From the NCBI RefSeq assembly GCF_900113335.1, contig NZ_FOOX01000002.1:335635-399634 (forward strand): 64,000 nt of DNA, in the 5' to 3' direction. The notes beneath the pieces are model-generated. The model was not told the origin of the DNA. It made no database searches and saw only the letters and a list, made by a program, of their open reading frames with translations. This document shows, one piece after another, positions 40,907-63,014 of this stretch (its first letter is position 1; every line of letters starts with the position of its first letter). A program made the translations under genes and the position numbers. The DNA comes from Desulfotruncus arcticus DSM 17038 (GTDB taxonomy: Bacteria; Bacillota; Desulfotomaculia; Desulfotomaculales; Desulfallaceae).

Positions 40907-40983
40907 GCCGGTACCTGTAACCCTTTGCTTCTTCCTTTCTTAGCTACCATGAAAAAAAGGTTTTAAGTTACTTGTATCTGGCG

Positions 40984-41032: not shown

Positions 41033-41058
41033 TACCTTGCCCGCGGTATCTATTTTTC

Positions 41059-41576: not shown

Positions 41577-41592
41577 GCGCCTGTTGGGGCAG

Positions 41593-41607
41593 TGGCACAA
41601 AAATTGC
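41593..41607 (+). promoter_or_regulatory. Sigma-54 (-24/-12) promoter of catabolic island
   Basis: TGGCAC-AAAAA-TTGC is an almost perfect -24/-12 promoter. It lies 85 bp upstream of the first island gene, and the same operon encodes a sigma-54 activator (53156-55321), so the island appears substrate-induced through it. Confidence 0.9.
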
Positions 41608-41691
41608 GAAACATGAAAATTGTGAAATATAGTGAAATTGGATTAGCGTCCAATGTTATCAAAATACCACAAATGGAGAGAGGGAGAAGAG

Positions 41692-42798: not shown

Positions 42799-42935
42799 CA
42801 GGAAGTTTTATTTTCTGCATGAAAACAGTAATGCCGGCCCGGTTCACCCCACCCTTGCGTATTGTTGCCGATCGCGGCGGTTGTTGGGGTTGCTTGGTAA
42901 AAAAATTGAACAATTAGTGATTGGAGGATTTTATC

Positions 42936-44033: not shown

Positions 44034-44063
44034 CTTTAAGATGTAAAATGGGAGGGAACAGTT

Positions 44064-45323: not shown

Positions 45324-45827
45324 ATGGATTATTTGGAAGGTAAAGCCTGGGTGTTTGGGGATTTCATCTCCACGGACCTGATTGCTCCGGGACGTTATTT
45401 TCACCTTAGATCCAACTTGCCGGAATTCAGCAAGCATGTTTTGGAAGACGCCAATCCTGATTTTCCGCGTCTGGTGCAGCCCGGCGACATTGTCGTGGCG
45501 GGCAAAAACTTCGGCATGGGGTCAAGCCGTGAACACGCGCCGGCCATCATGAAACTGGCCGGGGTGAGCGCGGTGCTGGCCGAATCATTCTCCCGCATCT
45601 TTTTCCGCAACGCTATTAATATCGGGCTGCCGGCCATAGCGGTGCCTTCCGGCGATTTTGTCGCTCAGGGAGAGCGCCTGAGGATTGATCTGGTAAAGGG
45701 CATAATTTATAACCTTGATCGGGATCGGGAAATACATTTTAATCCGCTGGCGCCCTTTATGATTAATATTCTAAATGACGGGGGGGTTGTCGATCACGTA
45801 ATCAAGCACAAGGGTTTTCAGATTTAG
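45324..45827 (+). CDS. Aconitase-family hydro-lyase small subunit (LeuD-like, first)
   Basis: A 167-residue swivel-domain subunit. Family blocks: GDFISTDLIAPGRYFHLR (substrate-loop region), GKNFGMGSSREHAPAIMKLAGVSAVLAESFSRIFFRNAINIGLPA and the C-terminal NDGGVVDHV. The loop after STDLIAPG determines substrate in this family and reads RYFHLRSN here, unlike the second LeuD-like protein (KHRSKAEN), which suggests different substrates. It starts directly after the large-subunit stop codon. Confidence 0.92.
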   Translation: MDYLEGKAWVFGDFISTDLIAPGRYFHLRSNLPEFSKHVLEDANPDFPRLVQPGDIVVAGKNFGMGSSREHAPAIMKLAGVSAVLAESFSRIFFRNAINIGLPAIAVPSGDFVAQGERLRIDLVKGIIYNLDRDREIHFNPLAPFMINILNDGGVVDHVIKHKGFQI

Positions 45828-45882
45828 CCGTTATTGGCAGAAAAGCAGCATTAGAAAATTATTGAGATTAGGGGGTTTGAAA

Positions 45883-46884
45883 ATGAAGTTTAAACGAGGG
45901 ATTTTGGTTTTGGTGTGTATAGCGGCCATCGCCGCGCTGCTGGCCGGATGCGGGCAGGGGTCCACGGACCAGCAGAGCGGGGACAAGGAACAGGCGGCCA
46001 AGGTCACTGATTACCCGAACAAGCCGATCACCATCATAGTGCACAGTTCACCCGGCGCCGGCGCGGACCTTTTCGGACGCCAGGCGGGTAAAGCCCTGCA
46101 AAACGTGCTCGGCAAACCGGTGGTGGTGGAGAATAGAACCGGCGGCTCGGGCGCCGTGGCCCTGCAGTACGTGGCCGATTCCAGGCCCGATGGCTATACT
46201 CTGATTGGGATGACGGATACTTTGATCACCACGCCTTTAAAAAACTCGACCCCGAAGAGTATTCACGACCTTGTTCCGGTAGCCCGGCTGGTGCTTGACG
46301 GAGATGTGATTTACGTTAATTCCGACAGCAATTGGGATTCTCAGAGCGTACTTGACGCCATTAAGGGAGGGTCTGCCAAATTTAAATTGGGCAGTCCGCA
46401 GGTTGGCTCTCCGGAATCCATAGCCGTAAACACATTGCTCAATCAATACAAGGCCAATATTAACGCAGTTACCTACGGCGACGGCTCCGAAGCTTTAATG
46501 GGTGTTCTCGCCGGGGATATTGACGCCGGCATCGCCGAATTGGCCGAGATCCTGCCGCAGCTTGAGGCCGGCAAGGTCAAAGTCGTTCTGGCCTTTAACT
46601 CGGAGCGGAACCCGGCCATACCCGATATCCCGACCTTTGTTGAAAGCGGTTACCCGGATGTGATTGTGGATAAATTCCGCGGCTTCAGCGCGCCCAAGGG
46701 TACGCCGCAGGAAGTTATCGACGTGCTGCAGCAGGCCTTTCAGCAGGTTATGGACGACCCGGATTACAAGAAAGCTTACACTGACAACCAGCAGATTCCC
46801 GCTTACCAGAACTCAGCGGACTTTCAGGCATTTTTGGATGAAACCGAGGCGAAGTATAAAACTTTCTTTGACGCCCAGAAGTAA
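45883..46884 (+). CDS. tctC: Tripartite tricarboxylate transporter receptor TctC
   Basis: A 333-residue extracytoplasmic solute receptor anchored as a lipoprotein (MKFKRGILVLVCIAAIAALLAGC, lipobox LLAGC). Family blocks: YPNKPITIIVHSSPGAGADLFGRQAGKALQNVLGKPVVVENRTGGSGAVA and the C-terminal IPTFVESGYPDVIVDKFRGFSAPKGTP. TctC proteins bind citrate-like di- and tricarboxylates and feed them to TctAB, encoded next. The start at ATG 45883 has AGGGGG upstream. It is positioned between the first LeuCD pair and tctB. Confidence 0.92.
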   Translation: MKFKRGILVLVCIAAIAALLAGCGQGSTDQQSGDKEQAAKVTDYPNKPITIIVHSSPGAGADLFGRQAGKALQNVLGKPVVVENRTGGSGAVALQYVADSRPDGYTLIGMTDTLITTPLKNSTPKSIHDLVPVARLVLDGDVIYVNSDSNWDSQSVLDAIKGGSAKFKLGSPQVGSPESIAVNTLLNQYKANINAVTYGDGSEALMGVLAGDIDAGIAELAEILPQLEAGKVKVVLAFNSERNPAIPDIPTFVESGYPDVIVDKFRGFSAPKGTPQEVIDVLQQAFQQVMDDPDYKKAYTDNQQIPAYQNSADFQAFLDETEAKYKTFFDAQK

Positions 46885-46979
46885 AAGCAAGTTGGCTGGG
46901 GACGTGGAACTGCGTTTGAGGCGTCTGGCCTGATGTGGTTCCACCACCCCATTTGAGATCGGCAAAGGAGGTGAAGACG

Positions 46980-47471
46980 ATGGCACGAGATCGTGTCACG
47001 GCGGTGGCGACGCTTCTGCTGGGCATCTTTGTCATTGTCAGCGGACTGAACATGCCCCGGGCAGCGCTGCACAGAGGACCCGGGCCGGGGGATTTCCCCC
47101 TTTTGATGGGAGTGCTGCTGCTGGTCCTGGGCGTGGCTTTGTTGGTAAACGCCGGACGAAAAAAGGCGTCGAAGGCGCCTGTGGAGGTTGCGGAAGCACA
47201 AAATGAGGTTGTCCAGTCTCCGGATGAGTCCGGGAGACCTTGGATCATAAGTGTCGGCGGTGCGGTGCTTTTACTGGTGCTGTACCTGTTGCTACTGCCG
47301 CTCCTGGGTTTTGTGCCGGCCACGCTTATTTTCAGTATGGCCTATCTTGTATTGTTATACGGACAGCGGTTTATTCAGAGTCTTGCGCCAACGGTATGCT
47401 TTACCGTTTTGTGCTACGTGCTTTTCCAGATAGTTCTTAAAGTGCCGCTGCCGACTTTTCTCAATCGCTAA
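46980..47471 (+). CDS. tctB: Tripartite tricarboxylate transporter small subunit TctB
   Basis: A 163-residue membrane protein with four helices (VTAVATLLLGIFVIVSGL; GDFPLLMGVLLLVLGVALLV; IISVGGAVLLLVLYLLLLPLLG; TVCFTVLCYVLFQIVL), the usual TctB topology and length. The start at ATG 46980 has an ideal AAAGGAGGTG site. A soluble charged loop lies between helices 2 and 3. It is the small membrane component of the tricarboxylate uptake system. Confidence 0.88.
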   Translation: MARDRVTAVATLLLGIFVIVSGLNMPRAALHRGPGPGDFPLLMGVLLLVLGVALLVNAGRKKASKAPVEVAEAQNEVVQSPDESGRPWIISVGGAVLLLVLYLLLLPLLGFVPATLIFSMAYLVLLYGQRFIQSLAPTVCFTVLCYVLFQIVLKVPLPTFLNR

Positions 47472-47502
47472 AAAGCATAACTGATGGAAAGGAGGTTTGT
47501 CC

Positions 47503-49005
47503 ATGGATGGATTTGAACAGCTGCTGCACGGCTTTGCGATTGCCGGTACGCCTGTGAACCTGCTTTACGCCCTGTTGGGGGTTTCGGTAGGCACACTGAT
47601 TGGCGTTCTGCCGGGTGTCGGTCCGGTGACCGGCATCGCGCTCTTGCTGCCGCTGACCTTTGGCCTTAATCCGGTGAGCGCTTTGATCATGCTGGCGGGA
47701 ATATATTACGGGGCCATGTACGGGGGGGCTATTACATCTATCCTAACCAGCATCCCCGGAGACAACCCGGCGGTAATAACCGCTTTGGAAGGGCATCAAC
47801 TGGCCAAAAAGGGGCGTGCCAGTTTAGCTATGGGCGTGGCGGCCATATCATCCTTCACCGCCGGAACCATTGGATTGATTTTGCTGGTTTTACTGGCGCC
47901 GATCATTGCCCAGGTGGCCATCCGGTTTGGTCCGCCCGAGTACTTTTCGTTAATGCTTTTATCCTTTACCCTGGTGGCGGCCCTGTCGACCAATAATTTA
48001 ATCAAGGGCCTGATTGCCACTGTGCTGGGGCTTTTGATTTCCACGGTGGGAATCGATATCATGTCGGGTGAACCCCGATTTACCTTCGGTTTAATAGGGC
48101 TGTTGGACGGTATTGATTTTATCATAGTTGCCATTGGTCTTTTCGCTCTGTCCGAGGTCCTGATCAGCCTGGAGCATAAAGCGCCGCCTATTCAGCGTCT
48201 GACGAACTTTCGCCTGCGGGAAATGATTCCGTCCCGGGCTGAATTCAAACGGTGTATCGGCGCCATCCTGCGGGGTACGGGACTGGGGTTTGTGGTCGGG
48301 ATACTGCCGGGTGCCGGGGCGAGTATCGCTACTTTTCTGGATTACGGCATGGAAAAAAGTATCTCCAAGCACCCTGAGGATTTCGGAACCGGTGTGATAG
48401 AAGCGGTAGCCGGCGCGGAATCCTCCAATAACGCCGCGGCGGATGGTTCTCTGGTAGCCTTATTGACCCTGGGCATTCCCGGTTCCGGTTCGACGGCGGT
48501 GCTCCTGGGCGGGTTCATGCTGTTGGGAATCGCTCCCGGCCCCACCCTTTTTACGCAGCACCCGGACGTGGTCTGGGGGCTGATAGCCAGCATGTATCTG
48601 GGCAATGTAATGCTTTTGGTGATGAACCTGCCGATGGTGTCGGTATTTGTCCAGGTGCTGCGCGTTCCGTATCCGGTGCTTTCGCTGGGGATTATTATCT
48701 TTTCCGTGCTGGGAGTATACAGTGTTGGCAACAACATCTTCCAGCTCTGGCTGCTGGTATTTTTCGGGGTTTTGGGGTACGTCCTGCGCAAACTGGATTT
48801 TCCCCTCGCACCTTTGCTCCTCGGCGTGGTCCTGGGGAAGATTATGGAAAAGTCGTTTTTGCAGTCCCTGCTTCTTTCCGAGGGGAAATGGCAGATTTTC
48901 TTCCAGCGGCCCATTTCGCTGACCCTGTTGATTGCGCTGGGGATTGTGCTGGTTTTCCAACTGGTGCAGATTGCACGGCGTAGCGCCTACGCCGGCGGGA
49001 AGTAG
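47503..49005 (+). CDS. tctA: Tripartite tricarboxylate transporter large subunit TctA
   Basis: A 500-residue permease with about twelve helices. TctA signatures: GVLPGVGPVTGIALLLPLTFGLNPVSALIMLAGIYYGAMYGGAITSILTSIPGD, RGTGLGFVVGILPGAGASIATFLDYGMEKSISKHPEDFGTGVIEAVAGAESSNNAA and TLGIPGSGSTAVLLGGFMLLGIAPGP. ATG 47503 with AAAGGAGG upstream is the start. It completes TctCBA, so the island can import its own di- or tricarboxylate substrate by cation symport. Confidence 0.95.
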   Translation: MDGFEQLLHGFAIAGTPVNLLYALLGVSVGTLIGVLPGVGPVTGIALLLPLTFGLNPVSALIMLAGIYYGAMYGGAITSILTSIPGDNPAVITALEGHQLAKKGRASLAMGVAAISSFTAGTIGLILLVLLAPIIAQVAIRFGPPEYFSLMLLSFTLVAALSTNNLIKGLIATVLGLLISTVGIDIMSGEPRFTFGLIGLLDGIDFIIVAIGLFALSEVLISLEHKAPPIQRLTNFRLREMIPSRAEFKRCIGAILRGTGLGFVVGILPGAGASIATFLDYGMEKSISKHPEDFGTGVIEAVAGAESSNNAAADGSLVALLTLGIPGSGSTAVLLGGFMLLGIAPGPTLFTQHPDVVWGLIASMYLGNVMLLVMNLPMVSVFVQVLRVPYPVLSLGIIIFSVLGVYSVGNNIFQLWLLVFFGVLGYVLRKLDFPLAPLLLGVVLGKIMEKSFLQSLLLSEGKWQIFFQRPISLTLLIALGIVLVFQLVQIARRSAYAGGK

Positions 49006-49035
49006 TCCGATGACGGATAAAGGAGGACCGGGCGA

Positions 49036-50442
49036 TTGAACAAGCAAACAATAGCGCAAATTCTCGGAGATTTTATAAACAAGGTGCAATACGAGGATAT
49101 TGATTCGCCAACGGTGTGGCGGGCTAAAATGTGTATCCTGGATATGGCGGGGGTGATCATTGCCGCGCAAGCGGAAGAGAGCACGCAGATTTTGCTCCGG
49201 TATTTGCAGCGGCATGGCGATAATCCGGAGAGCAGTGTTCTCGGTACTGCATTCCGGCTCCCGGCGGCGCACGCGGCCATGCTCAACAGCACCATGGCCC
49301 ATTCGCTGGAGCTTGAGGATCACCACAGCCACAAGCGTTCACTGAATCATCCGGGAGTATGCACTACTCCGCCCGCCCTGGCCATAGCCGAAAAATTGGG
49401 CAGCAGCGGCCGGGATTTTTTAACGGCGGTGGTTTTAGGTTACGAAATAGGCAGCCGGATCAGTGCGGCAACCAGGCTCGGGGTATTAAATCTCGAACAG
49501 GGATTCCATGAAAGCTCGGTCTGCGGTCCTTTTTCCGCGGCCACGGCAGCAGGAAAACTGACAGGCATTACTGCCGATAGACTGGCCCAGGCTTTTGGCA
49601 TTTGTGGCAGCCTGGCGGCCGGCTCGATGGAATTTAAAAGCAGCGAAGCCTGGTCAAAGCGCCTGCAGGTGGGCAGCGCCAGCCGCAGCGGGGTTATGGC
49701 CGTTGAACTGGCAGACGCCGGGTTTACCGGACCGCCCACGGTTTTTGAGGGCAAACACGGTTTTTTCCATTCCTATGTGCACGAGGGCAACTATGATTTA
49801 AGCAGGGTTACGAAAGACCTGGGAACTTCCTGGGATATCAACAATATCCAGTATAAGCCTTTCGCCTGTGCGGGGGTGCTCCATTCGGCAGTTACGGCGG
49901 CCCAAAAGGCCGGGCGGCTGCATCATCTTCACCCGGATGAAATACAGCGGGTGCTGGTCCGGACGGCCTCCAAGGTGGTGGAAGAGTATGCGCAGCCCCA
50001 TGAGCGGAAAGCGGCGCCGGAAAATCCGGTCGGCGCCCAGTTCAGCCTGCAATATTCAGTTGCGGTAATGCTGGTCCGGGGCAAGGCGCTGCTGGAGGAA
50101 TTTTCGCCGGAAGCTATCCGGGACCCTGATATTCTGCGGGTTGCGGCCCTGGTGACGCCACTGGCCGATTCGGGCATCGACGCGGGGTGGCCGGGAATTG
50201 ACCCGACGGAAATGACGATTATTCTTAAAGACGGCAGAGAAATTTTGACCAGGGTTGAAGAAGCCAAGGGAGACTTGGTTAATCCTGTGACTGACGATGA
50301 ACTGCTGGACAAATTCAGGGAGCTCACCGCGCCATATCTGTCGGCGGAGGCCATTGAAAACGCGCTTGAAATGTTTCAGAAGCTGGAGACTGTCAAGGAT
50401 ATGAGGGAATTAACCGGAGTACTGACACCGCTCTCCCGGTAG
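49036..50442 (+). CDS. MmgE/PrpD family dehydratase
   Basis: A 468-residue member of the MmgE/PrpD family (2-methylcitrate dehydratase, cis-aconitate decarboxylase and related enzymes). Features: ILDMAGVIIAAQ, LNSTMAHSLELEDHH with the family's HxxD-like region, GYEIGSRISAA, HESSVCGPFSAATAAGKL, AFGICGSLAAGSMEF, WSKRLQVGSASRSGVMAVELADAGFTGPP and KPFACAGVLHSAV. These enzymes act on citrate-like tricarboxylates without an Fe-S cluster. TTG start at 49036 with GGAGG upstream. It is the third type of hydro-lyase in the island, beside two LeuCD pairs. Confidence 0.9.
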   Translation: MNKQTIAQILGDFINKVQYEDIDSPTVWRAKMCILDMAGVIIAAQAEESTQILLRYLQRHGDNPESSVLGTAFRLPAAHAAMLNSTMAHSLELEDHHSHKRSLNHPGVCTTPPALAIAEKLGSSGRDFLTAVVLGYEIGSRISAATRLGVLNLEQGFHESSVCGPFSAATAAGKLTGITADRLAQAFGICGSLAAGSMEFKSSEAWSKRLQVGSASRSGVMAVELADAGFTGPPTVFEGKHGFFHSYVHEGNYDLSRVTKDLGTSWDINNIQYKPFACAGVLHSAVTAAQKAGRLHHLHPDEIQRVLVRTASKVVEEYAQPHERKAAPENPVGAQFSLQYSVAVMLVRGKALLEEFSPEAIRDPDILRVAALVTPLADSGIDAGWPGIDPTEMTIILKDGREILTRVEEAKGDLVNPVTDDELLDKFRELTAPYLSAEAIENALEMFQKLETVKDMRELTGVLTPLSR

Positions 50443-50574
50443 CTGCTATTTATAAAGTCAACCGGAGACAAGTGCTTGCGGGGCCGGGGAACGGCTCGAG
50501 CGTCCCCGAAGAGAAAGCCGGCGGGAAGGTGCTGGAACCGTTACCGCGGCGCGGCCAATAAGGAGATAAACAAG

Positions 50575-51270
50575 ATGAGTGCAAAGAAGCTGGAACTTTT
50601 TGTTGATGGACGTTTAGACCAAAAGATTGAATTCATTGCCAGCAAGGTGATTAATACCGGCTATTCCGGCCGCAATCAGGCAGAGATTAAAAAGCATGTA
50701 GATGAGCTGAAGGCCCTGGGAATTCCCGCGCCGGAAAAAACTCCGCTTTTTTTGCCCAAGCCGGCCCAGCTGCTCAGCACGGCCGGCAGTATTGAGGCTA
50801 TTGACCGCAGCAATACCGGTGAGGCCGAAGCGGTGCTGCTGGTAGGCAAGGAAGAAATCTATGTGGCCGTGGGCAGTGACCATTCCGACCGGGAACTGCA
50901 TGCTTTCAACATCCCCAAATCCAAGCAAATTTACCCTAACTTTATTTCCAGAACGGTATGGCGCCTTGCGGATGTGGAAGACCACTGGGATGACCTGATA
51001 CTCAGATCAAGCATCAGCGTGTCCGGGAAACGGCGGGTATACCAGGAAGGCCGGCTGGCAGCGCTGCTGGGCCCCCGTGAACTGCTGGCCTCTGTCAGTC
51101 CGCTGGTCGGTGGGGATTTAACCGGACTGGTGATTTATTCGGGCACTCTGGCCGCCAGGGGAGAGATTAGGTTCAGCGACCGGTTTGAGGCTGAACTGGT
51201 GGACGAGGTGCGCGGGCAATCCCTTTACTGCGGCTATGCAATTGAATTGATTGACTGGTTCCGGAATTAA
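50575..51270 (+). CDS. DUF2848 family protein
   Basis: A 231-residue protein of the DUF2848 family, distantly related to fumarylacetoacetate-hydrolase-fold enzymes. Seen: NTGYSGRNQAEIKKHVDELKALGIPAPEKTPLFLPKPAQLL, the acidic EAEAVLLVGKEEIYVAVGSDHSDREL block (possible metal site) and PNFISRTVWRLADVEDHWDDLILRSS. Members are thought to be hydrolases or decarboxylases of small acids. The start is ATG 50575 with AAGGAGATA upstream. It lies between the PrpD gene and the second LeuCD pair. Confidence 0.82.
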   Translation: MSAKKLELFVDGRLDQKIEFIASKVINTGYSGRNQAEIKKHVDELKALGIPAPEKTPLFLPKPAQLLSTAGSIEAIDRSNTGEAEAVLLVGKEEIYVAVGSDHSDRELHAFNIPKSKQIYPNFISRTVWRLADVEDHWDDLILRSSISVSGKRRVYQEGRLAALLGPRELLASVSPLVGGDLTGLVIYSGTLAARGEIRFSDRFEAELVDEVRGQSLYCGYAIELIDWFRN

Positions 51271-51358
51271 GGCTTGATCCGGCACTGCGGCGCAAGTTAG
51301 ATGTTGGCAAAACCGTAAGCGGAGCCAATAAGCATTTCATTTAGTAGGGGGATAACTT

Positions 51359-52618
51359 ATGAAGCCAATGACCATTGTGGAGAAAATATTAAGCCGTAAA
51401 GCGGGCGCTCCGGTGTACGCGGGGGATTTTGCAACCGTGCCGGTTGATGCTCTGATGATTCACGACAGCAACGCCGCCACCACCATGGAATCTTTCCGTT
51501 CTTTTAAACGCAATGGGATCATGCCGGGAACAGACGTGGTCATGGTTATGGATCACTTTGCGCCCTGCCCCACAGAGGCGGCGGCAAATATGCACCTGAA
51601 AATGCGTGAATTTGCAGCCGGCCACAACCTCAGGCTTTACGGGGAGGGAGACGGCGTAGGACACCAGATAATGTGCGAAGGGCACGTGTTCCCGGGGGAT
51701 ATTGCCGTGGGGACAGACTCCCACAGCTGTACATACGGCGCGCTGAACGCTCTGGGAACGGGCATAGGGTCAACGGAGGCCGCGGGAGTGCTGGCCTACC
51801 GGAGGATGTGGTTTAGAGTGCCGGAAAGCATCCGGGTAGTCTGGCATGGCGAACTGCCGGCCGGGGTGACCGCCAAGGATCTGGCGCTGAAGACGGTGCA
51901 GGAAATCGGACTGCGCCGGGCCATTTACAAGGTGTTGGAGTTTGCCGGAGATGTGGTTTCGCGTCTTCCGGTGGAAGACAGAATGACCATATGTAACATG
52001 GGGGTTGAAGTTGGCGCCAAGGCCGCCATTATGCCCCCCGACGATAAACTGCTGCAGTGGATTGACCGGCGTCCGGGAACTGCCCGTACATTTGAGGCAG
52101 CCGGGGCGGACCCCGGCTGCGCCTACTGCGAGGTGCTGGAGCTGGATGCCGGTCAACTGGAGCCTCTGGTGGCCTGTCCGCCCATGGTGAACCTGGCGGC
52201 TCCGGCCCGGGAGTTAAGCGGCAAGCCGGTGAGCCAGGTGGTGCTGGGGTCATGCACCAACGGGCGGGCCGGGGATTTTCACGCTGCCGCGGCGCTGCTG
52301 GCGGGCAAAAAAGTGGCCCCCGGTGTGCGGCTGATACTGGTGCCGGCCTCCAGGCAGGTGTTGACCGAACTGATCAATGACGGCACGATGGAGGCGCTGG
52401 TCCGGGCGGGCGGACAGCTGATCCCCCCCGGCTGCGGCCCCTGCGCCGGCTATCACGGCGGCATTGTGGGCAAACAAGAGGTGGTAGTGGCCACAACCAA
52501 TAGGAATTTTATCGGGCGCATGGGGAGCCAGGACGCCGAAATATATCTGGCCTCACCCGTTACCGCGGCGGCTGCGGCCCTGACCGGCATGATCACTGAT
52601 CCCCGGGAGGTGCTATAA
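51359..52618 (+). CDS. Aconitase-family hydro-lyase large subunit (LeuC-like, second)
   Basis: A 419-residue large subunit with cluster cysteines in VLGSCTNGR and PPGCGPCAG, and TDSHSCTYGALNALGTGIGSTEAAGVLA. It has the same length as the first LeuC-like protein but is clearly divergent (for example CAYCEVLELDAGQLEPLVACPP where the first has DAVYERVINVRLETIEPMIAKP), so it is not a recent duplicate. It probably catalyses a second hydration/dehydration step or acts on a different intermediate. ATG with AGGGGGGAT upstream; the small subunit overlaps its stop by one base. Confidence 0.92.
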   Translation: MKPMTIVEKILSRKAGAPVYAGDFATVPVDALMIHDSNAATTMESFRSFKRNGIMPGTDVVMVMDHFAPCPTEAAANMHLKMREFAAGHNLRLYGEGDGVGHQIMCEGHVFPGDIAVGTDSHSCTYGALNALGTGIGSTEAAGVLAYRRMWFRVPESIRVVWHGELPAGVTAKDLALKTVQEIGLRRAIYKVLEFAGDVVSRLPVEDRMTICNMGVEVGAKAAIMPPDDKLLQWIDRRPGTARTFEAAGADPGCAYCEVLELDAGQLEPLVACPPMVNLAAPARELSGKPVSQVVLGSCTNGRAGDFHAAAALLAGKKVAPGVRLILVPASRQVLTELINDGTMEALVRAGGQLIPPGCGPCAGYHGGIVGKQEVVVATTNRNFIGRMGSQDAEIYLASPVTAAAAALTGMITDPREVL

Positions 52619-53115
52619 TGTCATTAAAAACGCTATTGCAGGGAAAAACGCATAAATTTGTCGATGATATCACCACTGACTACATTATTGCAGGAAAACA
52701 TCGATCAAAGGCGGAAAATGTACTTGATTTAAAGGATTACGTATTTAACGAAATCCGGCCCGGTTTTGCCGGGAGCGTTACCCGGGGCGACATAATTGTG
52801 GCCGGACATAATTTCGGCTGCGGGTCGTCCCGGGAACATGCCGCCACACTGATCAGGGCCTGCGGTATTGACGCGGTACTGGCCAAGTCCTTCGCCCGTA
52901 TTTTTTACCGGAATGCGATTAATATCGGTTTGCCGGTGATTGAATGCGACACTGACCTGATCGGGGAAGGCGATTTGCTGCAGGTGGACCTGAAAAGCGG
53001 GACGGTCAAGAATCTTTCGACCGGGGCGGCAACATCCTTTAAACCCATACCGGCGTCACTTAAGGTAATATTGGAGGCGGGCGGGCTGGTCAACCACCTG
53101 ACCCGAACCACGTAG
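52618..53115 (+). CDS. Aconitase-family hydro-lyase small subunit (LeuD-like, second)
   Basis: A 165-residue swivel-domain partner: DDITTDYIIAGKHRSKAE, GHNFGCGSSREHAATLIRACGIDAVLAKSFARIFYRNAINIGLPVIEC and the C-terminal ILEAGGLVNHL. The substrate-loop sequence GKHRSK is basic and differs from GRYFHLR in the first pair. Its start codon overlaps the large-subunit stop (TAATG). Confidence 0.92.
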   Translation: MSLKTLLQGKTHKFVDDITTDYIIAGKHRSKAENVLDLKDYVFNEIRPGFAGSVTRGDIIVAGHNFGCGSSREHAATLIRACGIDAVLAKSFARIFYRNAINIGLPVIECDTDLIGEGDLLQVDLKSGTVKNLSTGAATSFKPIPASLKVILEAGGLVNHLTRTT

Positions 53116-53155
53116 CACAGAACGGCAGCAAAAATGACAGCAGGGGGTAAGCGCT

Positions 53156-55321
53156 TTGAGTAAAAAAAAGAAAAGTGTCTGCTTTATTGCGCAGTACAAG
53201 GTAACCTGTGATTTTGTCGCCCGACAGCTCTTGCAGTTTTTGGACAAATTCATTACGGTGAGAACCTGGTGTTTGAAATACGACAGCGCGCCCCCCGGCC
53301 ATTTTTTTGATAATGATATATTTATTGTTTCCTGCAATACCACAATGGAACTGGTGCGCGGTTATTTCCCGCCCGGTAAAGCGGTATTGCTGGCGGCCCG
53401 CAACATTAACATTAAAAGGTTGGAAAAACTGCTTGAATTTAAGCCGGGCACCAAGGCCCTGGTAGTGGCCGGATCGGCGGAGACGGCGGCATCGGCCATT
53501 AATTTAATGAACGGGTTTGGCGTAAATTATCTGGAACTGGTGCCGTATTATCCGGGCAGCTCAATTGAAATCCCCGGAGATATTGAACTGGCCATCACCA
53601 CGGGACTGTCTCATATAGTGCCGGAGCAGGTTAAAAAAATAGTGGACCTGGGGAACAAAGGCATCGATCTTTCTACCTTTGCCAACTTAATGCAGCATTT
53701 AAATATCCCCATTGAGGTGTTAAATGAAATCTCCCACCATTACCTGGAGGCAATTCTCAGTGTCAGTCATAACCGGCTGAAAATAGCCAGGGTCAACGAA
53801 AACCTGAAGCATAACATGGAGGTTGTGTTGAATACCGTTAACGACGCCATCATAGCCGTTGACGGTTCCAATCATATCATCATGTTCAACCCCACGGCGG
53901 AAGAGATTCTGAACATCAAAAAAAGCGAGGTAATGGGTAAAATCGCCGGGGATGTGATTCCCCAGCTTGATTTTACCGGCTGCCTTAAATCCGGGGAAAG
54001 TATTCTTAACGAAGTTAAAAGGATCAACGAGACCCATTATGTTATTACCATCAACCCGATCCGCAACGAACCCGGACTGAACAACGGGGTTGTGGCGACG
54101 CTCAGGCCGGTTGACGAGGTTCAGGAATTGGAGACCAAGGTTAGAAGGGTGCTGAAAAAGAAAGGCAACGTGGCCAAACATACCTTTGCCGATATTATTG
54201 GCGAGTCCGCGGAGCTGAAGAAAACTATCGCCCTGGCTAAAAAGTTCGCGGAAACCGAGCTGACTGTTTTACTGGAAGGGGAAAGCGGAACAGGCAAGGA
54301 ATTGTTTGCCCAGGCTATACACAATCAGTCTTCCAGGCGGAAAGGACCATTCGTAGCCCTTAATTTTGCGGCTCTGCCGGAAAATCTGGTGGAAAGCGAA
54401 CTTTTCGGCTATGAAGACGGGGCTTTTACCGGGGCCAAAAGGGGCGGCAGACCCGGGCTGTTCGAGGAAGCCCATTTGGGCACGATATTTTTGGATGAAA
54501 TTGGCGACTCCTCGCCGGAAGTGCAAAAAAGGCTGCTGCGCGTCCTGGAGGAGCGTGAAATAAGAAGAGTTGGCGGGAGTACGGTTACTCCCGTCGATGT
54601 CAGAGTTATAGCCGCCACCAACCAGAACCTTGAAAGCCTGGTTAAACAAGGCAAGTTCCGGGCGGATTTGTTTTTCCGCCTGTGCGCGCTGCCCGTGTCA
54701 TTACCGCCGCTGCGCAGCAGGGACGGAGATATTATCCTGCTGGTTAATTATTTCTCCGGTAAGATTTCCGGCAGACAAATAACATTGGATGCATCAATTA
54801 AGGACTTTCTACAAAGCTATAGCTGGAAAGGAAATATACGGGAACTGGAAAATGTGGTGAAATATATGTGCAGTGTGCTCGGCTTGAAACAAGTTGCCGG
54901 GCTTGGTGATTTGCCGCCTTATCTGATGAGGAAAAGCTCGCAGCTGTTGGATGCGGCAAATGCCGAACCGGTACGGCGCCAGGCGGCGGACAGGTATAAA
55001 ACATTGGTCTCGGCTTTGAAAAGCGAGGGCAGCCTGGATACGGTGTTAATCATGCTGCAGGAAATACAAAGCTGCTCCCTGCTTAACCGGGGAGTCGGGC
55101 GCAACGCGCTGATGGAAAAGCTCAAAGCCAGCCGGGTGCCTTTTTCTGATTATAAAGTCAGGCAGCTGCTGAGAATGCTTAATGAATTAGGCTATATTGA
55201 CTCCGGCGTTACCCGGCAGGGCAGCAGAATAACCGCATTGGGCGAGGAGCTATTGTCGTTTTTGGAATCAGGGCAGCCGCATTTGGGAAATGATGGTATT
55301 GATAAGCTGTACTTACTTTAA
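53156..55321 (+). CDS. Sigma-54 activator of the catabolic island
   Basis: A 721-residue enhancer-binding protein. The N-terminal ~190 residues form an unfamiliar sensor, loosely like the PrpR N-terminal domain ([48 protein letters not shown]). A PAS domain follows (about 225-325, [17 protein letters not shown]). The AAA+ domain has Walker A GESGTGKE, the sigma-54 loop GAFTGA and Walker [12 protein letters not shown]. The C-terminus lacks a Fis-type HTH; instead, about residues 640-705 look like a winged helix ([11 protein letters not shown]...[18 protein letters not shown]). TTG start with AGGGGGTAA upstream. It probably drives the promoter at 41593. Confidence 0.9.
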
Positions 55322-55345
55322 GTGCTAATCATGGGAGGAGCAGTA

Positions 55346-56602
55346 ATGCCAGTGTCAAGCATATGGCCGATAATAAAAATACTCGCTGTTTTTTTGCTGA
55401 TGATTTTAATGCTGCGGAAAAAAATCAGCCTGGATATAACGCTCTTGGTGTCAACGGGCGTTCTGGGCGTTATTTTCGGCCTTGGCGCAATAGCGCTGTT
55501 CAAGCAGTATGCCTATACGCTTGCCGACATATCAACTCTGGATCTTATTGCCGTCCTGGTGCTGATTATGGTTTTGGAGTCGGTGATGCGGCGTACCGGT
55601 ATGCTTAAGGCGATGACCGATTCTTTAGCCGGCCTGCCCTGGAATAACCGTTTGCTGACCGCCGCCATACCGGCCATCATCGGGGTGCTGCCGTCGGCCG
55701 GCGGCGCCAGGTTTTCGGCGCCGCTGGTGGGGCAAGCCACGGAAGGGCGGCCTTACGTGGTTGAAGACAAGGTCTTTATCAACTACTGGTTCAGGCATAT
55801 TTGGGAGTTTTCGCTTCCTTTGTACCCGGCCCTGATCATTGCGATCAAAATATCCGGTTTTACCATGTCACAGATTTTAGTTTGGCTCTGGCCCTTTTCG
55901 GTGTTATGGGCCTTTCTTGGTTACTGGCATCTGTGGGGGCCGTACCAAAAAGTTAAGCAAGGTGCTTATCCCGGCAACGACCGGCTTCATTCCGGCGCCG
56001 CAACCGGATCATCTCTCAGGATGCTGATCGCCAATACGTGGCCTTTGTGGGCTACCGTAATCCTGGTGTTCTGCCGCGTGCCCATGGCAATTACACTTGG
56101 TATAGTTGTTTTATCGCTAATTATTCAGAAGCGATATGCCTGGCGCTACGTCTTTAAAACTTTGATCGAGCGGCTAACGCTGCGAATTGTCTTTTTAATT
56201 TGGGGTACGATGACCTTTAAAGATGTTCTTGTATTGTCGGGAGCCGTCGACCAGGTAAGCGCGGCAATATCGGCCATGGGTATTCCGGTTCTGGCTATAG
56301 TGGTGATCATGCCCCTGCTGCTGGGGGTAATGACCGGCATGGTTCAGGCCAGCATCGGCATATCCTTTCCCCTGGTGATGTCTATTATTCACCCTTCACC
56401 GGTCTATGTGATGCTGGCCTATGTATCCGGCACCATTGGCGTGATGATCTCGCCGGTGCACCTGTGTCTGGTGTTGACTATCGAGTATTTTAAAGCCGAC
56501 TTTGCAAGATCATATAAGCCGCTGGTGCTGCCGTGCCTGTTCATGGTTTTAATGGCCCTGGTGGTGTTCAAGTCTCAATGGTGGTTAAGTTCCATTTTAT
56601 AG
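55346..56602 (+). CDS. DUF401 family membrane transporter
   Basis: A 418-residue integral membrane protein of the DUF401 family (IT/anion-transporter-like fold). It has about ten helices, with the blocks PAIIGVLPSAGGARFSAPLVG, NYWFRHIWEFSLPLYPALIIAIKISGF, FLIWGTMTFKDVLVLSGAVDQVSAAI and VMISPVHLCLVLTIEYFKAD. It may export a product or import an alternative acid substrate. ATG 55346 has GGGAGGAG eight bases upstream. It is the last gene of the island; a strong terminator follows, and 130 bp later jetB starts. Confidence 0.85.
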   Translation: MPVSSIWPIIKILAVFLLMILMLRKKISLDITLLVSTGVLGVIFGLGAIALFKQYAYTLADISTLDLIAVLVLIMVLESVMRRTGMLKAMTDSLAGLPWNNRLLTAAIPAIIGVLPSAGGARFSAPLVGQATEGRPYVVEDKVFINYWFRHIWEFSLPLYPALIIAIKISGFTMSQILVWLWPFSVLWAFLGYWHLWGPYQKVKQGAYPGNDRLHSGAATGSSLRMLIANTWPLWATVILVFCRVPMAITLGIVVLSLIIQKRYAWRYVFKTLIERLTLRIVFLIWGTMTFKDVLVLSGAVDQVSAAISAMGIPVLAIVVIMPLLLGVMTGMVQASIGISFPLVMSIIHPSPVYVMLAYVSGTIGVMISPVHLCLVLTIEYFKADFARSYKPLVLPCLFMVLMALVVFKSQWWLSSIL

Positions 56603-56625
56603 AAAAAACTAGACATTGTTTCACT

Positions 56626-56672
56626 AAAAGCCGGTAATTCCCGGGTACAGGCTGGGAATTACCGGCTTTTTA
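56626..56672 (+). terminator. Terminator at right end of catabolic island
   Basis: A 16-bp perfect stem (AAAGCCGGTAATTCCC / GGGAATTACCGGCTTT) ends in TTTT. It isolates the island's transcript from jetB-jetC. Confidence 0.92.
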
Positions 56673-56731
56673 ATATATATTATTAAATAATGAAAAAGCT
56701 AACCTGCTATTAGAAGGAAGGGGAATAATCG

Positions 56732-57355
56732 TTGAGCTGGCACCAGGAGTACGAGGAGCTTTCGAATAAGGATAAAGACACCTTCAGTAAAGCGGCAAAT
56801 CTGCTGCTCGGCCAGAGCTTTCTGGTCTACGAGCGGGAAGAAGACCGTCTATTTTACCGGTTTGTTGAGCGTTATTTGGATATCTTCAGCGAATATTTTT
56901 TCCTCTCCGGATGGGATTTGCACCACAACAAACGATTTTCCGTGCTGCAGCTGTACAATCGCTATGGCCGGAACCGGTATCGTTTTACCCTGCAGGAAAC
57001 AATAGTTTTATTTATTCTCAGGCTGCTTTATGATGAAAAGCAGCAAGCCTTGCGGCTGACCCAGGAGGTATTGATATCAGGTGAAGAGATCCAGGGGAAA
57101 TATATGGCCCTGGAGATCAAAAACCGCTTGCCGGCCCGGGATGACCTGGAAAAGGCGTTAAAGCTGTTCAGCAGCTTTTCCATTCTGGACTTAAAGCGCG
57201 GGCAATGGAAGGATCCCGACGCTGTGTATTTATTATATCCGACCATTCTATTAGTTGTTGACGTGCCCAGCCTGGAAAGGCTGGCGGACTGGATCAATGC
57301 AGGCGAATCAAAGGAGGACAAAGAAGATGCTACTGACCGGAATCAAGCTGATTAA
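56732..57355 (+). CDS. jetB: Wadjet system JetB (DUF4194, KITE subunit)
   Basis: A 207-residue protein of the JetB / DUF4194 family, the MukE-like KITE subunit of Wadjet. Features: AANLLLGQSFLVYEREEDRLFYRFVERYLDIFSEYFFLSGWDLHHNKRFSVLQLYN and FTLQETIVLFILRLLYDEKQQ, the winged-helix dimer typical of the family. TTG start at 56732 with AAGGAAGGGG upstream. jetC begins inside its last 29 bp. jetA is 15.8 kb upstream, separated by the catabolic island and its terminator; the jetB-jetC promoter must lie in the AT-rich 56673-56731. Confidence 0.9.
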   Translation: MSWHQEYEELSNKDKDTFSKAANLLLGQSFLVYEREEDRLFYRFVERYLDIFSEYFFLSGWDLHHNKRFSVLQLYNRYGRNRYRFTLQETIVLFILRLLYDEKQQALRLTQEVLISGEEIQGKYMALEIKNRLPARDDLEKALKLFSSFSILDLKRGQWKDPDAVYLLYPTILLVVDVPSLERLADWINAGESKEDKEDATDRNQAD

Positions 57356-60300
57356 CTGGCATTACTTTACTGACGAACACATTCCAATTGCGGGCAGCGC
57401 CTTGATCACCGGCAACAATAAAGCGGGCAAGTCCACGCTGATTGACGCGCTGCAAGTGGTTATTGTTTCCAATATGAGAAAGATTATGTTCAATTCCGCC
57501 GCCTTTGATGAAAAGACGGCCAGGGACCTGAAAGGTTATTTGCGTGGCAGGACCGGCACGGAAGGCAAGTACACCTACTTAAGAGGAAACGATGAGGATT
57601 TCTCCAGCTATATCGTGCTTGAATTTACCCGTTCTTCCAGCAATGAATCTTGCTTAATCGGCGCGGTGTTTGACTATTATTGCGACACCGGGGAAGAGGA
57701 TCACGTATTTTTCAAAATTGAAAATTGCAGGCTGCGGGAGCATCTGTTTTTACAGGACGGTTACCCCCGCAACCGGGAGCAGTTTGTCCACTACATGAAA
57801 GCCAGGGGGCTTAATTTTCGCCAGTACCGCAATGACCTGGAAGGTTACAGAAACGATTTGCGCCAGCTGTTTGGCGGAATCAAGGAGTCCTTTTTTTCGC
57901 TTTTTGTTAAAGGCATTTCTTTTAAACCCATCACCAACCTGAGGACGTTTATTTACAGCTACATTTTGGATGAGCGGCCCGTAGATGTGGATACCATGCG
58001 GGATTACGCCGAAAGATACCGCCAGATGGAAACCCAGCTGTTAAACACCGGCGCTGAAATTATGGCTCTGGAGGAAGAATACCAGGCGTATGAGAAAGTT
58101 GAGCATTTGAGGCGGCAGGAAGCAGCGGGTCGCTATATGTTGCACAGGGGCGACTATGAGCAAAAAGTGCGGGGGCTGGACGAGGCGCAGCAGCAGTGCC
58201 AACAATCGGAGGAACGGCTGCAGTGGCTGTTGACTGAACTAGGCACACTGGAGGCCGGTTATAAAAAGTTAACTGCTGAAAAAGAACAGTTAATCGAAAA
58301 AATAAACGGCATAGCGGTTGTGCGGCAGGAAAACAAATTAAAGCAGCAGATCGGGGCTTTAACGGAACAAATCGCCAAGTTGGAACAAAAACAGCTCAAC
58401 CTGCTGCAGCAGGTCAAGGCAGACCTGCGGGACAGGGAAAAGCTAGTTGATATTTTAAGCCTGCTGCAGGCCCCCGGCCAATTAACGGAAGCGCTCAAAG
58501 AAGACGAACGTGCCTGGAAGATGTTCATGGAGGCGGGGTTCTTTCCGGCCGAACCGGATAAGCATACCCGTTCCTGGAATGAAAGCATGAAATGGCTGAT
58601 CGTACAGGCAGCGGAACTAAAAAAACAGCGGGAAACAGTGCAAAAGCAGGCTCAGGAACTGGCTGAGGTTATTAGAAACCTGGGAAAAAACCGGGTACTA
58701 AACAATGCTTCCGCCACCATGAAATTAAAAAAAATGCTGGAGGAACAGCTTACCCCCCGGGAAGGCCAGAGCCGGGTGCCGGTGGATATTCTTTGTGAAG
58801 CCATCGACATACGTGACCGCCGCTGGCAGAATGCCATCGAGGGCTATCTTTCCACCCAGAAGTTTGATCTTTTGGTGCCGCCCGGCTATTTTGACCGGGC
58901 ACTGAGCATTTACGAGCGCCGTAAATTTACCCACGGCATGGAAAACGTGGGTTTAGTCAATACCGACAAGCTGGTCAAGGAGGTTAAACCACCGCTTGCT
59001 GGAAGCCTGGCCGAGGAAATATCAGCCGATAAAGAGCACATCCGCGCTTACGCCAACTGGCTTTTAGGCGGTTTGATAAAATGTTCGTCAGAGACGGAGT
59101 TCAAACGACACAAGCGGGCTATTACCGCTACCTGCATGGTGTACCAGAATTACACCGCCCGCCAAATTCCCCACAAACGATATGAGGTGCCCTATATAGG
59201 AGCACAGGCGGTAAAGCTGCAGCTAGCCGTAAAACAGGAGGAATTAAGGAAATGCCAGCAAGAGTTAACCCTGTTGAACGAAAAGATCAAAAAAAGTGAC
59301 AGTGTTTTAAGCTTGAACAGCGATAAGCATTATCTTTACCAGCAGTGGTTAACGAATTTCGAGCAGTGCAAAAATTTAGACCAGCTGGAATGGGAACTGG
59401 TACAAACAAAACAAGAATTGCTGCACCTGGACCGTTCGGAACTGGAACTACTGGAAAAGGCCAAAGAAGGTAAAGAGCTGGAATTACGGCAGTGTGAAAA
59501 AGAAATAGCCGGTTTAAACACAGAAAAAGGCCAGGTACAGGCGAAACTTGAATTGCTTGAACAGCAGCTGCGGCAGCTTGCCGGTGAAAAAGATGCCGCC
59601 TGCCGAAAATATCTTGCTTACCTGGATACACTTGCAGATGAATTAAAGGAAACCTGCGAGGCCAAATGGGAGCGGGAAAGCCAGCAGCGCTCGCCTGCGG
59701 AACTGGCGCACAATTATTACATCAGTATTCAGGGACTGGAAACCAAAATTAAAAATAGTATGGACCAGGTAGTCAACGCCAGGCACGATTTTAATAAGAA
59801 ATTTGATTTTTTAGCTGACGTTACCGCCGCCGATAACGAAAAATATGCTGAAAGGCTGCATTTTTTAAAGGATATTCACCTGCCTGAATACAGCAAAAAA
59901 GCCGGTGAGGCCCGGGAAAAAGCAGAGCAGGCTTTAAAAGAGCACTTCCTGTCCCGCTTGCATGAGGCCATCAAGCTGGCCTATGAAGAAATAGACGAAT
60001 TGAATTTTGCGCTGCAGGATTTGAAATTCGGCAGTTATTCCTACCGGTTCAGCCTGTCCCCCAAGCCCGAACTGCGGGAGTTTTACGAAATGATCGAGGG
60101 TTACCAGTTGGGCTCAACCGAGCTGCTTTTCAGCACGGTGTTCCAGGAGCTATATGGTGATAGTTTCAGCCGGCTGTTTGAAGAGATCACCTCCGACAGC
60201 CAGCAGGATAAATTGCAGGAGCTTACCGATTACCGCTCCTACCTTGATTTTGACATCATCATTACCGATGACCGGGGCAACAAAACCTATTTCTCCAAGG

Positions 60301-60668
60301 TGTCCCGGACCGAATCGGGAGGCGGGGCCCAGATTCCCTTTTATGTGGCCATTTTGGCTTCCTTCTACCAGGTTTACCACCTTTACCGCAATAAAGAAGA
60401 TACCCTGCGCCTGGTGGTTTTTGATGAAGCCTTCAACCGGATGGATGCCGACAATGTTGAGGAATGCATGCGCTTTATCCGCAAATTGGGTTTTCAAGTC
60501 CTTATCGTCGAGCCCACCGGTAAAATCCAGCTGGTGGTGCCCTTTGTCAATACCAATATAATTGTGATGCGTGAAGGCTTCAACAGTTTCGTGGAGCGCG
60601 TAACCTGCAGGGAAATCGAGCAGTGGGTCGAACATGAACAGCAGCAGTCAATGGCAGCCGGCAGCTAA
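57327..60668 (+). CDS. jetC: Wadjet system JetC (MukB/SbcC-like SMC ATPase)
   Basis: A 1113-residue SMC-like ATPase. The head begins MLLTGIKLINWHYFTDEHIPI with Walker A GNNKAGKST near residue 27. Long coiled-coil arms (about 260-430 and 620-830, many Gln/Glu/Leu heptads) flank a hinge-like part with RRWQNAIEGYLSTQKFDLLVPP. The C-terminal head has the signature region SRTESGGGAQIPFYVAILASF and Walker B RLVVFDEAFNRMDADN. JetC with JetA and JetB forms the loop-extruding complex that recognises small circular DNA. ATG 57327 with AAGGAGG overlaps jetB. The usual next gene, jetD (nuclease), is missing in the window. Confidence 0.92.
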   Translation: MLLTGIKLINWHYFTDEHIPIAGSALITGNNKAGKSTLIDALQVVIVSNMRKIMFNSAAFDEKTARDLKGYLRGRTGTEGKYTYLRGNDEDFSSYIVLEFTRSSSNESCLIGAVFDYYCDTGEEDHVFFKIENCRLREHLFLQDGYPRNREQFVHYMKARGLNFRQYRNDLEGYRNDLRQLFGGIKESFFSLFVKGISFKPITNLRTFIYSYILDERPVDVDTMRDYAERYRQMETQLLNTGAEIMALEEEYQAYEKVEHLRRQEAAGRYMLHRGDYEQKVRGLDEAQQQCQQSEERLQWLLTELGTLEAGYKKLTAEKEQLIEKINGIAVVRQENKLKQQIGALTEQIAKLEQKQLNLLQQVKADLRDREKLVDILSLLQAPGQLTEALKEDERAWKMFMEAGFFPAEPDKHTRSWNESMKWLIVQAAELKKQRETVQKQAQELAEVIRNLGKNRVLNNASATMKLKKMLEEQLTPREGQSRVPVDILCEAIDIRDRRWQNAIEGYLSTQKFDLLVPPGYFDRALSIYERRKFTHGMENVGLVNTDKLVKEVKPPLAGSLAEEISADKEHIRAYANWLLGGLIKCSSETEFKRHKRAITATCMVYQNYTARQIPHKRYEVPYIGAQAVKLQLAVKQEELRKCQQELTLLNEKIKKSDSVLSLNSDKHYLYQQWLTNFEQCKNLDQLEWELVQTKQELLHLDRSELELLEKAKEGKELELRQCEKEIAGLNTEKGQVQAKLELLEQQLRQLAGEKDAACRKYLAYLDTLADELKETCEAKWERESQQRSPAELAHNYYISIQGLETKIKNSMDQVVNARHDFNKKFDFLADVTAADNEKYAERLHFLKDIHLPEYSKKAGEAREKAEQALKEHFLSRLHEAIKLAYEEIDELNFALQDLKFGSYSYRFSLSPKPELREFYEMIEGYQLGSTELLFSTVFQELYGDSFSRLFEEITSDSQQDKLQELTDYRSYLDFDIIITDDRGNKTYFSKVSRTESGGGAQIPFYVAILASFYQVYHLYRNKEDTLRLVVFDEAFNRMDADNVEECMRFIRKLGFQVLIVEPTGKIQLVVPFVNTNIIVMREGFNSFVERVTCREIEQWVEHEQQQSMAAGS

Positions 60669-61439
60669 TGTTTTACGCAGCCGCCTGGCAGTGGAAAAGC
60701 TAAGTGGACTGTTTCTGTCAACCGTATTGTTATGAACAAAACCCATGGTGAATGGTGATGTTTATTGCAAGGGAAACGGCAGTTGGCAGCCAGTTTGTTG
60801 CTGGCTGAATGGCGGGAACTAAAATTAACAAAAGGAGAAACCGGATTGGATCGGTTATGCTTTGCAAAAAAGATAACCTGTTGATATGTTTCCTCAGACG
60901 AGTCATGTGGAGACAGTGGTAGTGCTATATTTGAAATGAGTTAAAAGCTTTGATCCAGGATGGTTTTAGAATGGATGTGTTCTTTTTAGTGTAAGTTGCG
61001 ATGAAAGGAATATATATTCTGGGTTTCATAACAGGATCGTTTCTAGGTGGTCTGGTTTTTTTATTGGTGTGATATTTTTTTGTACAAGAATTAGAAGGCA
61101 TATTCAGGGAATGTGTTGAATGTTAAAACAAAATGATGTATGCTTTGATAGTTTGCTATAAACCTCATTAATAGCAATTCCACGTTGGGAGCGCTGGTGT
61201 GCCGTGTCGGGCATATTTCAGCCACATCTGGACACCTAAATCGGCGGGACTCTAGGACACATTGTCAAAGGTGAATAAGCCTGTAACTTTCAAAAATATC
61301 ATCGGAGCAAGGTTGATGGCAAAATAAAATATAATAGCTCTAACATCCTTGATAATAGCCTTCCTAATGATGTCCATCTAAACTTTACAGAAGGCTGAAA
61401 TTAGAAGAATAGTTATGTCTTAAGGAGATTACTTGATGT
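60669..61439. other. Decayed region downstream of jetC
   Basis: A 770-bp AT-rich stretch without an intact gene, where jetD would be expected. A 43-codon open stretch (60759-60886, CLLQGKRQLAASLLLAEWRELKL and on) lacks a good start and may be a gene remnant. A 23-codon frame at 61000-61074 encodes a hydrophobic peptide (MKGIYILGFITGSFLGGLVF) with a weak ribosome site. Segments around 61180-61270 resemble insertion-sequence ends but I cannot assign them. Confidence 0.45.
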
Positions 61440-61800
61440 TTTAAGTGACTAATAGATTGGGACAAGGCAATTGTCATCGTCATCATGTTTGTTTTTATTA
61501 CGGGGTTTACCATCGACATAGGTTTCATCTATTTCAATGATAGTATCAATAAATTCCTATTGTTATTGGTTTCCCATTGCAAATTTATTTTGTTGTAACA
61601 TCCTCCAAGCTGTTTTTATTTGTTGCGCCTATTTCACGTTGGAGTTGCAGGGCAGATATGCCCTTCTTATCGTTAAGGAACAAATAAATGGCAAAGAACC
61701 ATTTGCGGAGATCGGCTGAAGATTTCTCGAAAATGGTTCCCTTAAATGGAGTTGGATAGATATGCCGAACTAATTTAATTCTTTTAGAACGAATTCTCAT
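61440..61800 (-). pseudogene. IS1595-family transposase remnant
   Basis: Read on the minus strand, the fragment gives [21 protein letters not shown] then [20 protein letters not shown], after which one extra A shifts the frame; the second frame continues [16 protein letters not shown], two stops, then IIEIDETYVDGKPRNKNKHDDDD. These are the known blocks of IS1595/ISXO2-like transposases, including the catalytic Asp region DETYVDGK. The zinc-ribbon N-terminus and the C-terminal half are missing. It is clearly dead, and it lies next to the start of the NurA-like gene. Confidence 0.85.
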
Positions 61801-61820
61801 TATGTATAGGAGGGAGCGCG

Positions 61821-63014
61821 ATGGCAAGTGCTGACAACACAAGCAAGCGAAAAAAGATAACGCAGATTCTTGCCGAAGAAACAGGCGGCAAGAGCTATAA
61901 GGCTCACAAGTATAGCCTTGACTCAGAACGCTCCACCTTGGATTACAATGAGACCGAAGATCGCACCTTCTTTTGGAAAAAGAGAGGAGAAACCGAACCT
62001 CCGATCACTTATAAATCGCTTGAATCGCTGGCAAAAATGCTCGCAGCCCGAGACGAGCAAGTACTTACGTATTTTCTCGATGGTTCACGACACGTTTACA
62101 AAGTCGATGACATGGCATATTCGCAATCGGGTGATAGGAGTGTAATTTATCCAACTATTGCCGGACAAGTTGGGGTAGGTATCTGCAAACGTGAAAATAA
62201 ACAGATGATGCCGGAAATTTTAACAAGAGAGATTATTATTTCTATTCCAAGCATCGCTGACCCAAGTGGCAAAGGAGGCTTTTTTGAGTCGCTGTCAGTA
62301 AAATTGAATGAGAGCAACGAGTTAGCAAGGATTAAACAATGCGGATGGAAATTCTCCACACCTGTTCCATATGACACGAAACAAGACGAGAGAAAATTTG
62401 AAGACCGAGGTACCGCTCGCATTCAAGAAGCAATGATAGAACGTGAGAAGGAAATGGTTAAGAAACTTGTACGGGAAGGGAAGCTGAATCAGGACAACTA
62501 CCTTGTCAAAGATGGTTCGCTCGAATATCGCTTAACTAAAACCGACAAAGACGATGACAAGAGTTTTCAGACATTCAGGCAGAATTATAACTGGGTAATT
62601 GGAGTATCGAAATCATTTAACCCCGAGGCGTGCTTTGATAAAGGCAAGGCTAACCCCGGTTTAATTGCTGACTTACCGCTATATCATCGAACACCTGTGG
62701 CGTACTTTGGCAGTGAAAAAGAGCCACTTGCTTTTGCTGTTTGGTATGTGAGGCTGAGAGATAAAGGCAGAACGCGAACACCATTTGATGGCATACTCAA
62801 GGTGGAAAAAATTCTTGTACGTGACGACGAAATTAAGAATGGAATGGAAACAGAAACCGTTGATAGGCTTAGCGCATTACTTATTAATGAACGAAATCCA
62901 ACTTGTTATGGTACGGACATACGATGGGCAAATCACATCTACCCGATTTATCTCACAGAGAGATTCATTAAATCTCAGTACCTAAGCGTAGAGAGCTTTT
63001 TACATCTGTTTTAA
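61821..63014 (+). CDS. NurA-domain nuclease-like protein
   Basis: A 397-residue protein whose N-terminal half has [20 protein letters not shown] is the catalytic-Asp motif of NurA nucleases. The C-terminal part has [29 protein letters not shown] and [18 protein letters not shown], typical of NurA partners of HerA ATPases. The ATG has AGGAGGGAGCG upstream. A truncated herA-like frame follows 11 bp later, so this is a NurA-HerA pair of a defence or recombination system whose ATPase is broken. The catalytic identity is inferred from the motif and the neighbour. Confidence 0.7.

Follow-up and report, generated by a model that had tools for sequence, protein, structure and literature searches.

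A jetABC locus of the type I Wadjet kind without jetD and with a changed JetC signature motif in Desulfotruncus arcticus and related species

What becomes of a type I Wadjet locus that has no gene for the nuclease JetD? The window analysed here, a stretch of 64,000 nucleotides from Desulfotruncus arcticus DSM 17038 (G000:C30:335635-399634, G000 being the window's genome), contains such a locus. A sequence-only reading had found JetD missing behind jetC at 60669-61820 and had considered either an inactivated system or an SMC complex reused for another task. Type I JetA, JetB and JetC are all present, as judged by the PADLOC profiles JetA1, JetB1 and JetC1:

39476..40906, plus strand: jetA (kleisin), intact, 476 aa (PADLOC JetA1 PDLC00442, E=2.8e-159)
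56732..57355, plus strand: jetB (KITE, DUF4194), 207 aa, TTG start (Pfam DUF4194, E=1.2e-23; PADLOC JetB1 PDLC00502, E=1e-67)
57327..60668, plus strand: jetC (SMC ATPase), 1113 aa, intact (PADLOC JetC1 PDLC00519, E=0)

The jetA gene was missed by a DUF3375 probe and recovered with JetA of a relative; its product is 78% identical to JetA of Desulfallas Bu1-1. Downstream of jetC the following elements were distinguished:

60669..61440, no strand assigned: non-coding sequence behind jetC, JetD remnant undetectable (tblastn, JetD HMM, shuffles)
61441..61842, minus strand: probable IS1595-family transposase relic in several frames (DDE_Tnp_IS1595, 14.9 bits, below the Pfam cut-off)

The lack of JetD was confirmed by two approaches. 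With six type I JetDs as queries, tblastn gave no match at E<1 in 60669-61820, and a JetD HMM (--max, six frames, stops as X) gave negative bit scores only behind the window's jetC; two control loci reached 541 and 316 bits in the same test. On the basis of these searches, together with shuffled sequences, a JetD remnant in 60669-61820 was rejected, and the earlier view of 60669-61440 as a decayed jetD is not supported. The 43-codon open stretch at 60759-60886, which had been proposed as a possible remnant, is of chance-level length: shuffling 60669-61440 gave an open stretch at least as long in 498 of 500 cases. Translated, the stretch matches no Pfam family. The IS1595 relic of the sequence-only reading is plausible: it contains a motif which we take to be of the IS1595 family, and the match of the minus-strand frame stays below the Pfam cut-off. 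A 397-aa open frame without Pfam match above cut-off at 61821-63014 looks like the start of mobile-element sequence behind the relic.

The absence of jetD is not local decay. Four further species of the same family (genomes G001, G005, G002 and G013, the locus of the latter being G013a) carry intact jetA, jetB and jetC, with JetC proteins that are 73-97% identical among the five, and neither tblastn nor the six-frame JetD profile detected JetD behind jetC in any of these four. In a wider set of 39 JetC loci, JetD was present behind jetC in 32 and missing in seven, which amounts to none of the five loci of this clade versus 32 of the 34 remaining aligned type I loci. A profile search for type I JetD across the whole genomes found none in G000, G001 and G005, while G002 and G013 have one each, located directly behind the second, distant jetC of a complete jetABCD. 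Such a picture could in principle also arise from a faulty assembly, from contamination or from a divergent JetD that escaped detection, and G000 is indeed rated 5.39% contaminated. Nevertheless, the absence recurs in five assemblies, one of which (G013) is a single contig of 4.86 Mb, the window's jetC lies inside a contig of 495 kb, and the profile search had working positive controls, so that an artefact appears extremely improbable.

In a JetC tree of 37 of the 39 rows (G201 and G002b, with JetC in pieces, were left out) the five loci are monophyletic at 100/100. Their sister, G114, has JetD behind jetC; an assembly gap, filled with N, breaks up this JetD. Two further type I jetABC loci without JetD, in G034 and G076 (L090, L095), form a separate pair whose sister, G064 plus G087, has JetD; a profile search for type I JetD was negative in both genomes. 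As each of the two groups has a JetD-bearing sister, jetD was lost twice. At a threshold of E<=1e-100, JetC was matched at 27 loci in 25 of the 113 class genomes (G036, with adjacent JetD, falls outside the 27 because of this threshold). Type I JetD adjoins 20 of them, and the remaining seven are the five clade loci, G034 and G076. A search at E<=1e-195 in an even sample of 398 genomes from the phylum, which did not include every family member, returned only G000, G005, G114, G163 and G201, the last three all with JetD; no member of the clade turned up outside the family in this sample. With five species the clade is small. Carriage on phages or plasmids was rejected: the peptide patterns hit no viral contig, and the 18 plasmid matches were all below 60% identity.

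JetD genes are present elsewhere in G000. A complete type II Wadjet (C30:401954-410125) and a complete type III Wadjet (C30:437558-445324), each with its own JetD, are located outside the window, 6-49 kb downstream and within about 50 kb of jetBC. The sequence-only reading had asked for a profile check of the whole genome and had named a JetD gene elsewhere, or related functional loci of the same order without jetD, as evidence against it. In form both were found: the two better PF09983 matches, however, belong to these complete type II and III systems and were rejected as the window locus's own JetD, and the related loci of the same order are the four described above, which are at best putatively functional. 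The type I JetD profile also picked up weak TOPRIM similarity, at E values of about 4e-4 to 3e-3, inside the type II JetD2 gene in G000, G001, G002, G005 and G013. Could JetABC still act as plasmid sensor and borrow this JetD2 in trans? JetD2 is present in all five clade genomes versus one of 11 others in the family (one-sided Fisher 0.0014, a count that ignores shared descent), and in G000 it lies 12.5 kb downstream of jetC. Against this, every type II locus encodes a JetC-like SMC itself, and the JetD2 proteins of G001, G002 and G005 are 72-81% and that of G013 47% identical to that of G000. Moreover, a shared interface is not indicated, since the similarity of JetD2 to the type I JetD profile is limited to the weak TOPRIM match. 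We regard a nuclease in trans as unlikely. A replacement nuclease encoded behind jetC was likewise rejected for the clade: a nuclease gene of the Uma2 family follows closely in G001 only (L052:11865-12521), where it is a candidate replacement in that species, and the other four loci are followed by unrelated genes or none. No conserved neighbours of the clade loci were seen by eye.

The genes in the window do not form the contiguous JetABC that had been assumed, nor a contiguous four-gene operon: jetD is missing, and jetA lies 15.8 kb upstream of jetB. The sequence in between was resolved as follows:

40903..40915, plus strand: remnant of the jetB start, 13 bases directly 3' of jetA, reading ttgagccggtacc
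40916..56700, no strand assigned: metabolic gene cluster between jetA and jetB, about 15.8 kb (by eye and Pfam)
56701..56731, plus strand: remnant of the jetA 3' end, 31 bases directly 5' of jetB (junction comparison)

In the other four clade genomes the order is A-B-C with overlapping ends, jetA and jetB overlap at TTGA, and the metabolic cluster is missing from their junction. The intact junction of G013 and G001, with which 40903..40915 was compared, is TTGAG(C/T)TGGTACC. With a 13-base jetB start behind jetA and a 31-base jetA end before jetB, the junction is present twice in the window. This fits either an insertion of the metabolic genes that duplicated the junction or complementary losses from two operon copies. 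The cluster comprises isocitrate/isopropylmalate dehydrogenase-like, enolase-superfamily, aconitase-like and tripartite tricarboxylate transporter-like genes, as recognized by eye from translations, and MmgE/PrpD, DUF2848, sigma-54 regulator and DUF401 genes according to Pfam. A repeated sequence of about 125-130 bp with many inverted repeats was observed at 7324-7455, 15714-15843, 41059-41183 and 41451-41575 of the window, with a partial copy at 35480-35516; the copies are 96-99% identical and two of them are just behind jetA. The 31-base remnant holds a stretch resembling a ribosome-binding site for jetB (by eye). Expression of jetBC in the window is uncertain, because the operon is split, a promoter scan before jetB found no sigma-70-type site, and a terminator-like hairpin precedes the gene.

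This layout would suit an inactive, decaying system that lost jetD and in which jetABC are mere passengers, and relics of another jetC are indeed found on the same contig. The selection analysis points in the opposite direction. The frames are intact in five species, and the dN/dS check that had been proposed for jetA-C revealed purifying selection: Nei-Gojobori values among the five were 0.08-0.15 for jetA, 0.07-0.17 for jetB and 0.08-0.12 for jetC, with many imprecise dS values above 1. For the closest pair, G000 and G013, jetC gave a dS of 0.12 and a dN/dS of 0.12. The window's own branch is also constrained, since polarised changes in jetC since the split from G013a number 14 nonsynonymous versus 33 synonymous. 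The head regions of jetC are the least changed (mean dN 0.06-0.07 versus 0.19-0.21 in the coils). An inactivated system, one of the two options of the sequence-only reading, is thus quite improbable.

Although G000 and G013 belong to different genera, their loci share 96% nucleotide identity in jetC versus 84.5% in jetA, with a step inside jetB; jetC was recently exchanged between the two lineages. The jetC relics (C30:411544-412002 and 428349-428491; L046, L047) resemble jetC of G001 more closely (85-86%) than they do the jetC of the window (81-84%). This suggests a history in which an older jetC copy decayed while the exchanged jetBC, of the kind without JetD, was kept.

Besides the loss of JetD the clade shows changes in the ATPase. 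The motifs of JetC are encoded at these positions:

57411..57437, plus strand: Walker A, GNNKAGKST (GDNGAGKST in G114)
60312..60332, plus strand: ABC signature, ESGGGAQ
60414..60431, plus strand: Walker B with catalytic glutamate, VVFDEA, conserved

The signature is ESGGGAQ in all five clade proteins and KSGGETQ in all 34 others, and it is retained in the clade despite differing synonymous codons. Of the 72 JetC columns that are invariant in the 34 others, 65 are preserved in the clade, and five differ in all of its members (F870L, D904Y, K996E, E1000G, T1001A). Three of these five fall within the seven-residue signature (hypergeometric P 0.005, for a test chosen after seeing the result). In a check of the canonical motifs, GKST of Walker A and DEA of Walker B were found to be kept and the signature to be changed at three of seven otherwise invariant columns; the Walker A changes D30N and G32K affect columns that are variable elsewhere. 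Also retained are the serine and both glycines of the signature, the lysine of Walker A and the glutamate of Walker B. No invariant column is changed in JetA (0/14) or JetB (0/7), for which 27 and 37 of the 39 loci could be aligned, the remainder being too short or not found. Loss of JetD alone does not bring about the signature change, as the JetD-less loci of G034 and G076 have the normal KSGGETQ. The JetB motif 'IFDR', taken as a JetD-contact marker from a passage of PMC10586767, was rejected as uninformative, because it is absent from the compared JetB N-termini with and without JetD alike.

According to PMC5373644 and PMC5526789, SMC proteins need the signature motif for ATP-dependent head engagement. 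The changes should therefore alter engagement or hydrolysis, in a direction that is not readable from sequence; they could also mean a weak or dead ATPase. No such altered signature is reported in the open-access literature searched, supplementary tables being outside reach. A structure model of JetC (mean pLDDT 78.4, pTM 0.43) has long coils with a middle domain, and its fold is nearest to Wadjet JetC and MukB in the PDB, which serves as a fold check only.

A role as chromosome condensin, with JetABC replacing a missing Smc-ScpAB, was considered as well. In 16 of 16 genomes of the family neither the Smc hinge (PF06470) nor ScpB (PF04079) was detected, and TIGR02168 was found in none of the five clade genomes. 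However, the hinge occurs in only 16 and ScpB in 14 of the 113 class genomes, so that most of the class seems to do without Smc-ScpAB. For the same reason a link between JetD loss and missing Smc was discarded: all seven JetD-less genomes have no hinge match, but neither have 97 of the 113 overall. Since, in addition, 11 of the 16 family genomes do not have this JetABC, it is no general replacement of Smc, and a conserved motor would not be expected to show such a changed signature. We therefore consider a condensin function unlikely.

The locus resembles type I Wadjet (JetABCD / MksBEFG) in its JetA1, JetB1 and JetC1 profiles and in the overlapping A-B-C order of four of the five genomes. It differs in that JetD is missing from the whole clade, in the window genome also by the separation of jetA from jetBC, and in the signature, for which the JetC structure of P. 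aeruginosa PA14 (8dk1_C) has SGGE in register. Two members of the same group, MukBEF and the MksBEF of Pseudomonas aeruginosa, likewise consist of kleisin, KITE and SMC without nuclease; PMC7617805 states that MukBEF and several other members of the Wadjet group have no MksG/JetD, and MksBEF probably arose by JetD loss according to PMC10586767. The JetD loss of the clade appears to be separate from that of MksBEF, as the nearest relatives found are JetD-bearing Bacillota type I Wadjets (in a tree without MukB or MksB rows), and ESGGGAQ sets the clade apart from MksBEF and MukBEF. A natural change of the signature motif in an SMC-family ATPase is also described, in PMC5373644, for SMCL-1 of Caenorhabditis. 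SMCL-1 has no hinge, coils or Walker B glutamate, whereas the window's JetC keeps this glutamate and is modelled with long coils and a middle domain.

We speak of a derivative of Wadjet I and not of a Wadjet, because the nuclease that defines the latter was looked for and not found. The locus is probably a nuclease-free derivative that is kept by selection, has an altered ATPase and holds or organises DNA without cutting it. The reuse for another task envisaged before is the favoured reading. In this scheme jetD would have been lost in the common ancestor of the small clade. Selection would have preserved the remaining kleisin-KITE-SMC complex, whose ATP-binding site was remodelled meanwhile, the signature going from KSGGETQ to ESGGGAQ and Walker A from GDNGAGKST to GNNKAGKST. 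JetABC would still assemble and entrap DNA via ATP-driven head engagement, with engagement or hydrolysis altered, and would act by holding or organising DNA. A more specific version is tentative: ESGGGAQ might turn JetABC into a slow or non-cycling DNA clamp, or into a dominant partner holding other SMC machines back, instead of a loop-extruding cutter.

JetD loss itself is a known step in the Wadjet group. The apparently new element is a branch of type I Wadjets whose JetD loss is placed against a JetD-bearing sister and goes along with a rewritten ABC signature. If the clamp reading is true, the clade would have a Wadjet-derived DNA-holding complex in hosts without Smc-ScpAB. A wider question is how defence SMC complexes become housekeeping ones or vice versa; for MksBEF the route proposed in PMC10586767 is JetD loss. 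For the clade described here the step can be located in a phylogeny, with the JetD-bearing sister G114, five descendants without JetD and a short list of ATPase changes. The transition could thereby be put to the test in the laboratory, by exchanging a few residues and by supplying or withdrawing JetD, and a family without detectable Smc-ScpAB sharpens the question.
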